Positions 3,587 through 23,409 of a DNA stretch of 64,000 bases are shown here, one piece after another. The notes under the pieces were generated by a model. It worked only from the letters and a program-made list of their open reading frames with translations, ran no database searches and was not told where the DNA came from. The stretch spans positions 3,925,659 to 3,989,658 of the forward strand of contig NZ_CP038033.1 of the NCBI RefSeq assembly GCF_004421105.1, given 5' to 3'. The position numbers and the translations under genes are program-made. The number at the start of each line of letters is the position of its first letter. Positions within the stretch are counted from its first letter, which is position 1. The stretch is from Nitrosococcus wardiae (GTDB lineage: Bacteria; Pseudomonadota; Gammaproteobacteria; Nitrosococcales; Nitrosococcaceae).

Positions 3587-4396
3587 GGTAGTCCAGAAAT
3601 GTGAGTGAGCCATCATAATGCCGCTTCAACCTGAATAACGGCATTATAGTAATGAACAAAATACCAAATGGCACCGATATGATTTTCCAGTTTTTTGGAG
3701 AAGGAAAGTGCCTTTCTTACCAGGCGAGAAACGCGTTGTCTCAAGGTGCAATTAAACCGTTCAATGTGACTGGTTTTTCCCGTTTCTTTACCTACTGGGA
3801 AATGACGCTTTGCAGGAAAAATGGCTTCATAAGCTTCCCAAAAATCCGTATAACTGACCGCACACTGCCGATAAACGGCAGGTAAAGAATTCCATAAACC
3901 TTCCGCACTCTCACGACTCCGATCCCCTATGTAGAGGCCGACGATTGCCTTACTGTCAGTCTCTATCGCTAGCCAAACCCAGTGTTTGTTACCCTTTTTT
4001 CCGACAAACGACCAAAGCTCATCACATTCGATGGTTAAGCGACCTTTTGGACTTTTTTTACAGCCACCTCTCGGGGCACGTGTGGGTATTTATCATTTAC
4101 ATAATCCTGCAACCAACGCTCTGAAACACCCGTTACACGAGCAATACCCGCCAGTGAAATCCGCTCTAGCAACAATTTATCAATCAATTCTTTCGTCTCT
4201 TGAGGTATGGGGCCCTTCTTCGGGTGCTCAACAAATTGCCTACCACAAGACCGGCACATGAATTTCGGTGTACCTACCGCATTACTTCCATTCTTCACAG
4301 TATGAGCAGAACCGCACGCCTGACATTTCATGATAAATCACCTTTGCCAAAAAGAGTATCACCATACCCTATTCTCACTCATTCTGCAGCACTACC
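3587..4396. mobile_element. IS1-family insertion sequence
   Basis: The element is about 810 bp. The left end reads GGTAGTCCAGAAATGTGAGT. The reverse complement of the right end reads GGTAGTGCTGCAGAATGAGT, giving imperfect terminal inverted repeats with a GGTAGT tip like the GGTGATG tip of IS1. The minus strand carries insA and insB' joined by a slippery run. No target duplication of 8-9 bases is visible at the flanks, so the flanks may have been rearranged after insertion. Confidence 0.75.
3613..4331 (-). CDS. IS1 transposase InsAB', needs -1 frameshift
   Basis: InsA (98 residues, 4331 down to 4035) has a CxxC-x15-CxxC zinc ribbon (KCQACGS and MCRSCGRQF) and a helix-turn-helix (LAGIARVTGVSERWLQ). 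InsB' lies in the -1 frame and ends with a TGA at 3613-3615. Reading through a run of seven A's near the end of insA (VKK then SPKGRLTIECDELWSFVGKK) joins them into one protein containing the catalytic DE-LWSFVGKKGNKHWVW start, the GDRSRES region and HIERFN...R, as in IS1 transposases. Frameshift control of this kind is well established for IS1. Both frames are intact, so the element may be active. Confidence 0.8.
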
Positions 4397-4531
4397 GCCT
4401 ATTGTATTGCAGGGCATTGAGGTTCACACTTTACCGCTCAGGAGGAAATTCCCTGCTCTTTAACATTTTGATCCTTAAAGGAAAATAGAAAACGCATACC
4501 TGGTCGCCTTTGTTTTACAGCCATCCTCACC

Positions 4532-4662
4532 TAGTGGCCTATAAGACCTGAGGGAAATCGGACCAAAGCCACCGGTGGCGACAGGAGGTCACCGCTGAGT
4601 GTCCAGAGGAAGTATTCGCAGCGCACCTTGGCTGGTCCATCCACGCAGGCTGCAGGCCACTA
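4532..4662 (+). ncRNA. candidate structured leader RNA upstream of Rh ammonium channel
   Basis: A perfect 9-bp stem closes the region: TAGTGGCCT (4532-4540) pairs with AGGCCACTA (4654-4662). Inside it, GGACC (4560-4564) pairs with GGTCC (4634-4638), then GCCA (4568-4571) with TGGC (4629-4632). The apical arm pairs AGGT with ACCT (4586-4589/4625-4628) and CGCTG with CAGCG (4593-4597/4619-4623). GCCACCGGTGGC (4568-4579) is also a local palindrome, which offers a competing fold. It ends 82 bases before the ATG of the ammonium channel gene. It matches no riboswitch class I can recall. The RNA nature and the link to ammonium are inference. The remainder of 4397-4744 holds only the ribosome binding site AAAAGGAG at 4729-4736. 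Confidence 0.45.
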
Positions 4663-4744
4663 ACCGAGAAATGGCTATAAATACCGACAGGCATCTCAAC
4701 CTGGGCGGTTGGGCTAGGTAAATAACTCAAAAGGAGAAAAACCA

Positions 4745-5968
4745 ATGAAAAAACGTTTTTGCTTTGCACTGCTTGGGGTAATCGCTTTTTCTCTGTTTTT
4801 TTCTAGCGCGCGGGCAAGCGAGGCTGCATTTGCTCCAGGACTCCGGGAACTCCAGGAAGTCGCCCAGTATAATTTTGCGATCCACATCTTGGCGATGTTA
4901 CTGGTAGGCTTCGGTTTTCTTATGGTGTTCGTCCGAAGATACGGCTTCGGCGCCACCACCGGCACCTACTTGGTGGTGGCGGTCAGCCTACCCCTCTACA
5001 TCCTGTTTCGTGCTTATGGCATCTTTGGCCATCCACTCGATGCCCATTCGATTGAAGTTTTGCTGTTTGCTGAATTTTCAGGAGCGGCGGGACTAATTGC
5101 CATGGGTGCCGTACTCGGCCGTCTGCGAGTCTTTCAATACGCTTTATTGGCGCTGCTTCTCGTTCCCGTGTATCTGTTAAATGAATGGCTGGTACTCGAT
5201 GGCGCTTTGGGGATCACCCGAGGGTTCGTGGATACCGCCGGTTCAATCATCATTCACGCCTTTGGCGCTTATTTTGGCTTGGGGGTCTCCATTGCCCTGA
5301 CTACAGCTCATCAGCGCAGCCAACCGATCAACTCGGATGCCACCTCAGATCGTTTTACCATGCTCGGCTCTATGGTGCTGTGGCTTTTCTGGCCTAGTTT
5401 CGCCACCGCGATTGTCCCTTTAGAACAAATGCCGCAGACGGTGATCAACACCATTCTTTCCTTATGCGGGGCCACTCTCAGTACTTACTTTTTAAGCACG
5501 TTGTTCCACAAGGGTAAAACGTCGATGGTCGATATGGCAAACGCCGCCCTCGCGGGTGGTGTGGCCATCGGCTCGACATGCAATATCGTGGCACCGGCAG
5601 GGGCTTTCGGAATTGGTCTGCTGGCTGGGGCGATTAGTGTTATCGGCTATGTATTCATTCAACCGATGTTGGAATCGCGCTTTGAAACCGTCGATACCTG
5701 CGGCGTCCATAATTTACACGGAATGCCAGGACTAGCGGGCGGGTTGATTGCCATCATGGTCGTACCCAATATAGCCATGGCTCAACTTATGGGCATTGCC
5801 GCCACTGTCGCTCTGGGTCTTGGAGGCGGCCTCATTGCCGGGGCGTTGATCAGGCTTACGGGAACAACCCGCTTAGCATACGAGGACGCAGAGGAATTTA
5901 CTCACGTCGAGGCCCTAGCCCTGGAGAGCAAACTTGCCGCGTCCCGGGAAAAGGAGGCACAAACCTAG
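4745..5968 (+). CDS. Rh-type ammonium/ammonia channel
   Basis: This 407-residue membrane protein has a cleavable signal peptide (cut near ARA-SEA, residue 24) and about 11 further hydrophobic helices. Rh rather than AmtB membership is shown by DTAGSIIIHAFGAYFGLG, with Asp163 and pore His171, and by DTCGVHNLHGMPG, with His325. These positions agree with the twin-His pair of the Nitrosomonas Rh50 protein (about 170 and 324). The channel would move NH3/NH4+, and possibly CO2, across the inner membrane. A good ribosome binding site (AAAAGGAG) sits 9 bases before the ATG. It stands alone between an IS1 element and a purB fragment, with no glnK partner, and has a structured leader upstream. Confidence 0.92.
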   Translation: MKKRFCFALLGVIAFSLFFSSARASEAAFAPGLRELQEVAQYNFAIHILAMLLVGFGFLMVFVRRYGFGATTGTYLVVAVSLPLYILFRAYGIFGHPLDAHSIEVLLFAEFSGAAGLIAMGAVLGRLRVFQYALLALLLVPVYLLNEWLVLDGALGITRGFVDTAGSIIIHAFGAYFGLGVSIALTTAHQRSQPINSDATSDRFTMLGSMVLWLFWPSFATAIVPLEQMPQTVINTILSLCGATLSTYFLSTLFHKGKTSMVDMANAALAGGVAIGSTCNIVAPAGAFGIGLLAGAISVIGYVFIQPMLESRFETVDTCGVHNLHGMPGLAGGLIAIMVVPNIAMAQLMGIAATVALGLGGGLIAGALIRLTGTTRLAYEDAEEFTHVEALALESKLAASREKEAQT

Positions 5969-6003: not shown

Positions 6004-6279
<276 letters not shown>

Positions 6280-7094
6280 TAAACCATATTCACTATGAGC
6301 GGCACCGACCGGAAGAAACCGTTTTGTACAAGTTGGTGCAAGAAAACGTGGAAACCTTCTTTGCTCAAGTTGAGACAGAGACCGGGTCGGGGCTGCCCGA
6401 TTTTGTCAAAGAGGAATTTGATGCATTTCTTGAGTGTGGCATTTTAGCGTATGGCTTCCTGCGCCTGCGCTGTACCGACTGCACCCATAAGAAGCTGGTG
6501 GCTTTTTCTTGCAAACGGCGCGGATTCCGTCCTTCGTGTGGTGGACGGCGCATGGCGCAAACGGCGGCTCACCTGGTCGATCACGTCATCCCCAATGTAC
6601 CCGTGCGCCAATGGGTGCTTTCACTGCCAATTCCACTGCGCTATCTATTCGCCGCCCATCCGCATCTGATCTCACCCGTATTGCAGGTCATTTCGCGCGC
6701 CATCTCTACTTTTCTGATCAAACAGGCCGGATTAAAACGGCGTGATGCACAAACTGGTGCGATTACGCTTATTCAGCGCTTTGGTTCGGCCGCCAATCTC
6801 AATATCCATCTGCATTGCCTGGTACTCGATGGCGTCTATCGCATGCAAAACGGCGTACCGAAATTCTGCCCTGTACACACACCGACGACTGAACAACTGC
6901 AGGGGTTGCTCAGCCAGATCATCCAACGCATCATGAAAGCATTAACTCGACATGGCGCGCTTATTGAGGAGGAGGGCATGACCTACCTTGCCGACATGGA
7001 ATCGGATGTTGCTTTAGCTCCGCTGCAATCGGCGGCCTGTACCTATCGGATTGCGCTCGGTCCCCGGGCAGGACAGAAGGTGTTGATGTTAAGA

Positions 7095-8455
7095 CACGAC
7101 TTGGAAGGTTAACCTCAAAATGCGGGGATAGGTATAGAGTTAAGCAGGCATTAGTCGCTCCAGAATCTGCTCCTGAGATTGCCCTTGTGTAAAGAGTCCC
7201 TGCGCACGAAGTGCAACATTTGGCCGAGGGCCTGGCGGGTGAGGGTATAGCGCTTCTGACCGAGGGTGTGCTGTTGGTTTTCAACAAAGGCGAATCGTTC
7301 AGATTTTCTGCCTCCTGCCGGGGTGCGCTGAAGCAGCGACTGCGCTACGCAACTCAAGCGGAAGTGGCGTTTGACCGCTTCCTCCTTGCGCACCTGAGCC
7401 GCTTCCAGTCCCACAGCTTGTTTGCAGAACTCATGAAAGATTTCCACCGGCCAGCGGTAGCTCCACACCCGAATGACCCGTCCCCCTTCCCAGTGCAGGG
7501 CGTCAGTGAGTAAAAAACGGGGTTGATCCTGGAGGTCACCTTGCAGGGACGAAAGCTTTCGGGATGGTGCTGGCGCAACTCGGCGGCGATCTCATCGACC
7601 CGGCGCCACTGCCCCTGCCATTGAATGAGCCGCGAGCTTTCTAGCTCAGACACCCAATGCTTCCCCTGCTGTTCAATGAATTGGGTTAATGGGAATGATA
7701 ACACCCCGTTATCAAACGCGTAGTGGGCTTGCGGAAAATGCCCTTCGCCTTCGAGTTGGTGCACAATCTCTACGGCCATTTCCGTGCGCTTGCGGTAGGA
7801 CAAGCGGTTTTTCTGATAATGGAGCAAGTCGATAAATCGCTGCCGTGCCTGCTCTAAATCGGGGTAGTCCTCTTGAGCCGTCATGTTCAAATAACCTAAC
7901 TCTTCTGCCTGATAGGGGGGAAACTGCACCTCGACCGCCACACCATCGACCCGCTGGGCATTGGCCACCACTGCGGTGACCAGCGTCTGGTGGCGGCTCA
8001 TCCGCCCTTCCACATAGTCATACGCACGCTTGGTAGCATAAATCTTTGGTCCCCGCTCATGATGGACATAGGTCCAATCCAGGCTCATCACTTCCAAGCC
8101 CCGTCCCCGATGGGCTCCCGACACCACCGCTCGATGCCGGGGCATTAACCCTTCACTGTCCCAGCCCGCCTCAAATACCCCCGCGTGCATCGCCCGCCGA
8201 CTCACCCCTTGAGATTCCAGCCATACCTGCTGAGTGTAAATCCCTTGCAGCGTTTTGTTTGCACTGAGCAACACACCGGTCACATACCGGCTCACATGTT
8301 CAAAACCCGCCTCCCGGCAAAACAGATCCCGGTAAGGCCTAGACCCTCTTTAATGAAGCAGGGAACACTTACTAAGGGTAGCCACATCTCTGAGCATTTC
8401 CTTGAGCTATTTTCCCCCGATCATGCCTTTCATGACGTTAACTTTCCAAGTCGTG
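7095..8455. mobile_element. IS4-superfamily (IS701-like) element nested in IS91 gene
   Basis: The terminal inverted repeats are CACGACTTGGAAGGTTAAC on the left and, as reverse complement, CACGACTTGGAAAGTTAAC on the right, with one mismatch. A 6-bp direct repeat TTAAGA flanks it at 7089-7094 and 8456-8461. Removing the element plus one repeat restores the IS91 transposase frame exactly. This is a clean, recognisable transposition event. Confidence 0.85.
7151..8295 (-). pseudogene. DDE transposase with internal deletion and frameshift
   Basis: The N-terminal and middle parts (SLDWTYVHHERGPK, YDYVEGRMSRHQT, AFDNGVLSFPLTQFIEQQG) belong to an IS701/IS4-like DDE transposase. At about 7540, after ESFRPCKVTSR, the frame jumps. 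The in-frame C-terminal part lies in another frame, which ends at 7151 and starts PRFLLTDALHWEGGRVI then WSYRWPVEIFHEFCKQ (catalytic Glu helix). The stretch normally between these parts seems to be missing. The N-terminus also lacks a clean start: a TAA interrupts the frame near 8353. The element therefore cannot move by itself. Exact family assignment needs a search. Confidence 0.7.
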
Positions 8456-23048: not shown

Positions 23049-23409
23049 TGGTGGAGGCGGCGGGAATTGAACCCGCGTCCGCAAGCACTCCGCCTTTGGT
23101 TCTACATGCTTAGCCCGGTCATTAATTTAACCGCCTGCTACCCGACGGGCAGGGAAGACAAACGGCGATCCCAGTGAGGTTTTAACGGGTCCGCCCTGGG
23201 AGAGCTTCACCGCGATCTTGTGAGAGTCGACGCCTGAAATCTGAACGCACAAGCACGGCTTCAGTCAGACGGCACCCTACTGGGTTTTAAGCAGCGAGTG
23301 CGTAGTTGTCGTCGTTGGCAACTATAATTTTGCAGCGTGATTAGCGAGGTCACTGCACCTCGGCATGCTCCTCAGGTTTTGCTACCCGCGTCGAAGCCAA
23401 GTCGCCCCC
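23049..23409 (-). ncRNA. ssrA: transfer-messenger RNA (tmRNA)
   Basis: On the minus strand the molecule starts GGGGGCGACTTGGCTTCGAC and ends in a T-arm (GCGGGTTCAATTCCCGC) with acceptor CGCCTCC-A-CCA encoded. The 5' GGGGGCG pairs with 3' CGCCTCC. The tag frame at 23287-23319 reads ANDDNYALAA followed by TAA, the usual gammaproteobacterial degradation tag. tmRNA rescues stalled ribosomes with SmpB, whose gene lies just upstream on the same strand. The 3' end is a frequent integration site, which agrees with the integrase next door. Confidence 0.97.

Follow-up and report, generated by a model that had tools for sequence, protein, structure and literature searches.

Upstream of an Rh-type ammonium channel gene of Nitrosococcus wardiae lies a region of extensive self-complementarity, which raises the question of whether it is a regulatory RNA of this gene or DNA that entered its leader by other means. 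The window, i.e. the whole stretch of 64,000 nucleotides that was analysed, sits within a single 4.02-Mb contig. An earlier note, made from the letters of the window, had described a closing stem with nested helices before the gene and had considered an ammonium- or glutamine-responsive RNA as well as an origin connected with a neighbouring IS1 end. After comparison with the Rh leaders of other species, we regard it as moderately probable that the palindrome is a decayed MITE-like insertion and not an ammonium-sensing RNA.

The palindrome and the probable Rh leader

The perfect 9-bp closing stem (TAGTGGCCT/AGGCCACTA), the nested helices and the local palindrome are located where the earlier note had placed them (Table 1), and the fold stops 82 bases short of the ATG, as it had stated. 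The 131 nt enclosed by this stem (4532-4662) are predicted to fold at -56.5 kcal/mol, compared with -43.4 ± 3.7 kcal/mol for shuffled sequences (z -3.57), and none of 200 shuffles was as good. The structure is therefore present, but the extent of about 130 nt given for it was too narrow: pairing reaches 4498-4720, with a predicted energy of -91.7 kcal/mol (z -3.88), which again was matched by none of 200 shuffles. For both extents, the pairing exceeds what is expected by chance. For all 314 nt of the leader together, the fold stands out less (z -2.41 in 60 shuffles).

Aligned as DNA, the region is a long inverted repeat with imperfect, gapped arms of about 77 nt each (approximately 4506-4581 and 4616-4692), in which 55 of 69 aligned columns are Watson-Crick pairs. 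Its inverted-repeat score of 46 contrasts with 19.8 ± 3.7 (maximum 38) in 500 shuffles. When the window was tiled into 2552 frames of 223 nt, the two frames over the palindrome had the highest scores (47 and 46), followed by a frame with 39. Terminal inverted repeats around a short core, as expected of a MITE, are thus present far above the level of shuffles. As limits of a palindromic insert, 4518-4677 can be suggested, for which the fold z is -4.07 on the plus strand and -5.16 on the minus strand. A TA dinucleotide stands on either side of this segment; as a possible target-site duplication, these 2 bp are weak evidence, and the boundary is uncertain.

Table 1. Coordinates of the features discussed; positions refer to the window unless a locus handle precedes them.
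Feature	Position	Strand	Remarks
IS1-like element	3587-4396		Imperfect terminal repeats 3587-3609 and 4374-4396 (alignment)
Promoter-like element TATTG-N17-GTTCACACT	4400-4430	+	Conserved before Rh genes of ammonia oxidizers
Rh mRNA leader, inferred	4431-4744	+	314 nt, the distance from the conserved element to the ATG
Hairpin / imperfect inverted repeat, full extent	4498-4720		Fold z and inverted-repeat alignment
Palindromic insert, suggested limits	4518-4677		Arms TTTACAGCCAT/ATGGCTATAAA; TA flanks 4516-4517 and 4678-4679
Closing stem (9 bp), 5' arm	4532-4540	+	
Closing stem (9 bp), 3' arm	4654-4662	+	
Local palindrome GCCACCGGTGGC	4568-4579		
Candidate upstream ORF, 40 codons	4599-4721	+	GTG start preceded by AGGAGGT; ends 23 nt before the Rh start codon
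11-mer CCGACAGGCAT	4684-4694	+	Also present in the Rh leader of Nitrosomonas halophila (L020), about as far from the ATG
AGGAG, Shine-Dalgarno-like	4732-4736	+	Outside the hairpin
Rh/Amt-type ammonium channel gene, 407 aa	4745-5968	+	PF00909, E 3.1e-49
tmRNA gene	23049-23409	-	RF00023, E 1.3e-95; sole Rfam match of the window at gathering score
Conserved multibranch folded domain, N. europaea type	L020:4786-4973; L024:3197-3366; L044:2181-2323		z -2.40; -3.74; -1.77; picked after viewing the alignment of three sequences, two of them close

The promoter-like element holds its position upstream of Rh in Nitrosospira, Nitrosomonas and the window organism. Its 31-nt pattern was found before Rh at 79 of 86 loci and at 17 of 20 further loci, among which some organisms occur twice because two collections were used. 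A sigma-70 consensus scan did not flag the element, and it is solely its conservation and position that point to a putative promoter function. A similar TTGACA...TACACT arrangement was seen by eye at Nitrospira Rh loci. With this conserved element upstream, the palindrome probably lies within the Rh mRNA leader and would hence be transcribed, as far as can be judged from sequence.

Behind the same element, 76 other distinct Rh leaders have lengths of 43-362 nt. These counts exclude the loci without the pattern (L013, L030, L060, L080, L155, L175 and L183 of the 86; L218, L220 and L221 of the 20), identical leaders (L014 = L012) and the Nitrospira loci, and a few of the lengths, above all that of L173, take in some coding sequence, at most about 30 nt, because the protein match began late.

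Relatives of the gene and of the palindrome

The downstream gene had been taken for an Rh/Amt channel, in agreement with its PF00909 match. The best 80 of its 229 relatives belong mostly to Nitrosospira, Nitrosomonas and Nitrospira, with 67-77% identity over the best segment. No Rh match at E 0.001 was obtained in three genomes of the same genus, and the matches in more distant relatives were weak (E 1.8e-4 to 9.8e-14, 20-51 bits). In a tree of 40 Rh proteins, which took in 39 of the fetched loci, the gene groups with 14 rows of the Nitrosospira clade at a support of 100/98. Its exact place is unsure because its branch is long (0.56, flagged as long by the tree program). Judging by these protein sequences, the gene was probably acquired from a Nitrosospira-related ammonia oxidizer.

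The leaders of this sister clade are short, all 18 distinct ones measuring 43-48 nt compared with 314 nt in the window, and leave no room for the hairpin. The search for homologous leaders in related genomes that the earlier note had proposed found none, either by DNA or by covariance model. No DNA match to the hairpin at E 0.001 was found in 58 relatives; when matches up to E 1 were admitted, 40 of 59 genomes, counting the own one, gave some match, the best outside the own genome having an E-value of 0.003 over 28 bases. Further DNA searches gave no hairpin match in 125 genomes of the N. europaea family at E 0.01 (at most six scored candidates shown per genome, without a positive control) or in 368 other genomes of the same class at E 0.001 (at most two shown per genome). 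A single-sequence covariance model recovered the window copy alone, both in 39 genomes (38 relatives and the own genome) and in 80 chosen sources, the 79 others being without a match. By BLAST and covariance model, there is no second copy in the own genome, and plasmids gave no match for 4400-4745. The end motif of the palindrome, searched with up to three mismatches in 59 genomes, gave 22 matches, fewer than a reversed control pattern. Among the relatives sampled, these searches thus give no indication that an RNA has been conserved along with Rh.

Like the riboswitches and leader RNAs of Rfam 15, the palindrome is a structured stretch of what is probably a 5' leader; unlike them, it has no match at gathering score, so that no Rfam family covers it, in line with the earlier note, which had named no such match. 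A permissive search returned chance-level matches only (SAM_V, E 1.5; freshwater-2, E 3.7; sR44, E 0.52). These results bear on the possibility that the hairpin is a lineage-specific cis-acting leader RNA, maintained to control translation or stability of the Rh mRNA, possibly according to nitrogen status. Its place between the conserved promoter-like element and the gene and its significant fold are in favour of such a role. A riboswitch is, however, expected to have a structure conserved across homologous leaders, and none was found in the 38 related genomes or the 79 other sources; the hairpin is also absent from the Nitrosospira-type leaders. Nor is an expression platform apparent, since no terminator-like site was found at 4350-4950 and the Shine-Dalgarno-like site lies outside the hairpin. 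The minus strand, moreover, folds better than the plus strand. We consider a cis-acting leader RNA unlikely.

What fills long Rh leaders in other species

Another 19 leaders reach 120 nt or more, and six of these contain an inverted repeat with z of at least 2.9 (40 shuffles each): L072 (3.1), L038 (4.7), L048 (2.9), L152 (3.6), L212 (10.8) and L224 (5.3). L214 reaches 2.7 and the remaining 12 stay below 1, which shows that leaders can be long without a palindromic insert. Genome copies were counted for the leader palindromes of L038, L048 and L152. The L038 leader has at least 40 matches in its own genome and at least 40 in the L048 genome, mostly to leader positions 24-168, and that of L152 occurs at 31 places in its own genome, itself included.

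Two repeats can be described from these leaders. One, of about 145 bp, is present in the Rh leaders of L038 (L038:4788-4932) and L048, with at least 40 matches in each of the two genomes. The other (L231-L250 and L152) is palindromic and about 149 bp long, with TAAGGAARCGCTGATTAATT-like ends; it has 31 BLAST matches in the Nitrosomonas-type genome G094, one of them in the Rh leader there.

All 20 copies of the L152 repeat that were retrieved have both inverted ends (up to four errors per end), and they fold with z between -2.3 and -8.0 (mean -5.1, 60 shuffles each), as strongly as the palindrome in the window. Since such copies fold equally well, a strong fold does not imply an RNA function. 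Together with the short leaders of the sister clade and the lack of a homologue, this leaves the ammonium- or glutamine-responsive RNA proposed earlier unsupported.

Entry of palindromic DNA into an Rh leader is apparent in L224, which when aligned with L222 shows two inserts as clean gaps, and hence a clean empty site; one end of the second insert matches the L152 repeat over 20 nt (90%). The gap in the alignment of L212 with L076 is less clean. The plus-strand fold has been lost in the leader copies of L152 and L048 (z 0.43 and -0.09), which are thus decayed, and is kept by the inserts in L038, L212 and L224 (z -2.90, -7.75 and -4.83). Roughly, there is no need to assume an insertion preference for the Rh leader, because about 3-5 insertion events in 76 leaders stand beside tens of repeat copies per genome. 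A more far-reaching proposal would be that palindromic mobile repeats have been recruited time and again into the transcribed leaders of ammonia-oxidizer Rh genes, and that their hairpins, including that of the window, now act as post-transcriptional control elements of the ammonium channel; we regard this as very improbable.

The MITE-like repeats of L038, L048 and L152 share with the window palindrome an inverted repeat of about 145-160 bp between the promoter-like element and the Rh gene. They differ in having about 30-40 or more matches per genome, whereas the window palindrome occurs once, and the consensus of the L152 repeat, which accounts for most of the L152 leader, gives no match to it (z -1.0 to 0.2 against the window leader in the same orientation). 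Homology between the window leader and the L152 leader was also considered and rejected: the local alignment is not significant, 181-217 of 1000 shuffles being as good. A global alignment of the two beat 1000 of 1000 block shuffles, the only one among 15 leaders to do so. We ascribe the likeness to chance or shared composition, and the global score stays unexplained. A comparison of 4440-4500 with short Nitrosomonas leaders was not significant either (best z 2.65 in 58 comparisons).

A different type of long leader occurs in N. halophila, N. europaea and one relative (L020, L024 and L044). These leaders resemble that of the window in their 311-357 nt before Rh and in the same promoter-like element, and the 11-mer CCGACAGGCAT is common to the window and L020. 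They differ in that a multibranch domain takes the place of a long palindrome and in that their covariance model does not match the window, which scores at most 0.3 bits compared with 148-192 for its members. Homology of the full leaders was likewise rejected, with 89 (L020), 37 (L024) and 227 (L044) of 300 shuffles as good.

The domain comprises 188, 170 and 143 nt, respectively, and ends 26-27 nt before the ATG. Its conserved blocks are GCTTNGTCGGACC (weaker in L044), AGAATCAGGTYTTCGC, AACTGATCAA and TCCGRCAGGCA, the first of which pairs with the last, and the domain is closed by the pairing of a GCTTNGTCGG-like sequence with CCGRCAGGC. Of 74 predicted pairs, 10 have both partners altered in one or more of the sequences, and many others are broken in one. 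The full leaders fold no better than shuffles (z -0.86, -0.54 and -0.83), and no other of 76 chosen sources matched the domain model below E 1. As a lead rather than a finding, the domain is more promising as a genuine Rh leader RNA than the window hairpin is. It also lends some support to a cis-acting role of that hairpin, since Rh leaders may carry structured RNA, although the window itself does not match this model.

Origin of the palindrome

An insertion is thus the better reading, as the earlier note had partly anticipated, but the IS1-like element does not look like its source. The end of this element (around 4396) lies 3 nt before the promoter-like element, whereas the palindrome is downstream of the latter and about 100 bp from that end. 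The element has a partial copy with 70% identity elsewhere in the own genome, and its 97-aa ORF has no Pfam match. Directly 3' of the Rh gene (6049-7112) is what we take to be a short ORF resembling the PurB N-terminus that overlaps the start of a transposase-like ORF.

According to the favoured reading, palindromic DNA of about 160-220 bp would have inserted into the 5' leader of the Rh gene and then decayed, and it may have arrived with the gene from a Nitrosospira-related donor. Once transcribed, it would fold passively as an mRNA hairpin and at most affect the stability or spacing of the mRNA, without sensing ammonium. What we infer here is an insertion origin of the palindrome, its arrival together with the gene and its passive role. 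The insertion is supported by the multi-copy palindromic repeats that occupy the same leader in other species. The chief contrary result is its single copy in the own genome, as several to many copies are expected of a MITE and none were found in relatives. The single copy would be explained if the palindrome arose in the donor of the gene, and further members of its family could reside in a donor genome outside the sample. Without the palindrome, the leader would still have about 150 nt that lack a counterpart in the Nitrosospira type; therefore, there is no clean empty site, unlike in L224.

The single copy and the imperfect, gapped arms could also go back to an inverted duplication formed at this very site, for example by template switching, which would since have decayed without ever being mobile. 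Against this, the same leader has received multi-copy palindromic repeats elsewhere, and we judge such a duplication to be quite unlikely.

Another reading would assign the function to the minus strand, as a small RNA or an antisense RNA to the Rh leader, or would take the palindrome for a protein-binding region. The minus strand of 4498-4720 folds better than the plus strand (z -4.84 vs -3.88), and it has a promoter-like match at 4895-4866, the sole one in 4350-4950, where shuffles average 0.4. The arm mismatches lean the same way, with eight A-C on the plus strand (G-U on the minus strand) compared with one G-U on the plus strand, a bias that varies with the alignment scoring (1:8 in one, 0:5 in another). 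A similar bias is, however, found in other inserts, where the split leans either way (L212 0:4, L224 4:1, L038 2:3, L048 3:7, L152 repeat 3:0), and it was therefore rejected as proof of a minus-strand RNA. The minus-strand reading also lacks a terminator-like site, a homologue and an Rfam match at gathering score, with chance-level matches at permissive settings, and we give it hardly any weight. The mismatch bias and the better minus-strand fold do not suggest selection for a plus-strand RNA either.

No published account of a structured Rh leader in ammonia oxidizers or of these Nitrosomonas repeats was found, which is no proof of absence in print; the text of PMC4830845 contains neither 'Rhesus', 'ammonium transport' and 'Rh-type' nor 'amtB'. 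For the Rh genes of ammonia oxidizers, the analysis yields a conserved promoter-like element. It also shows that a very stable predicted leader fold can come from a palindromic insertion. Leaders with inserts can now be separated from the few, of the N. europaea type, that may hold a genuine conserved RNA.
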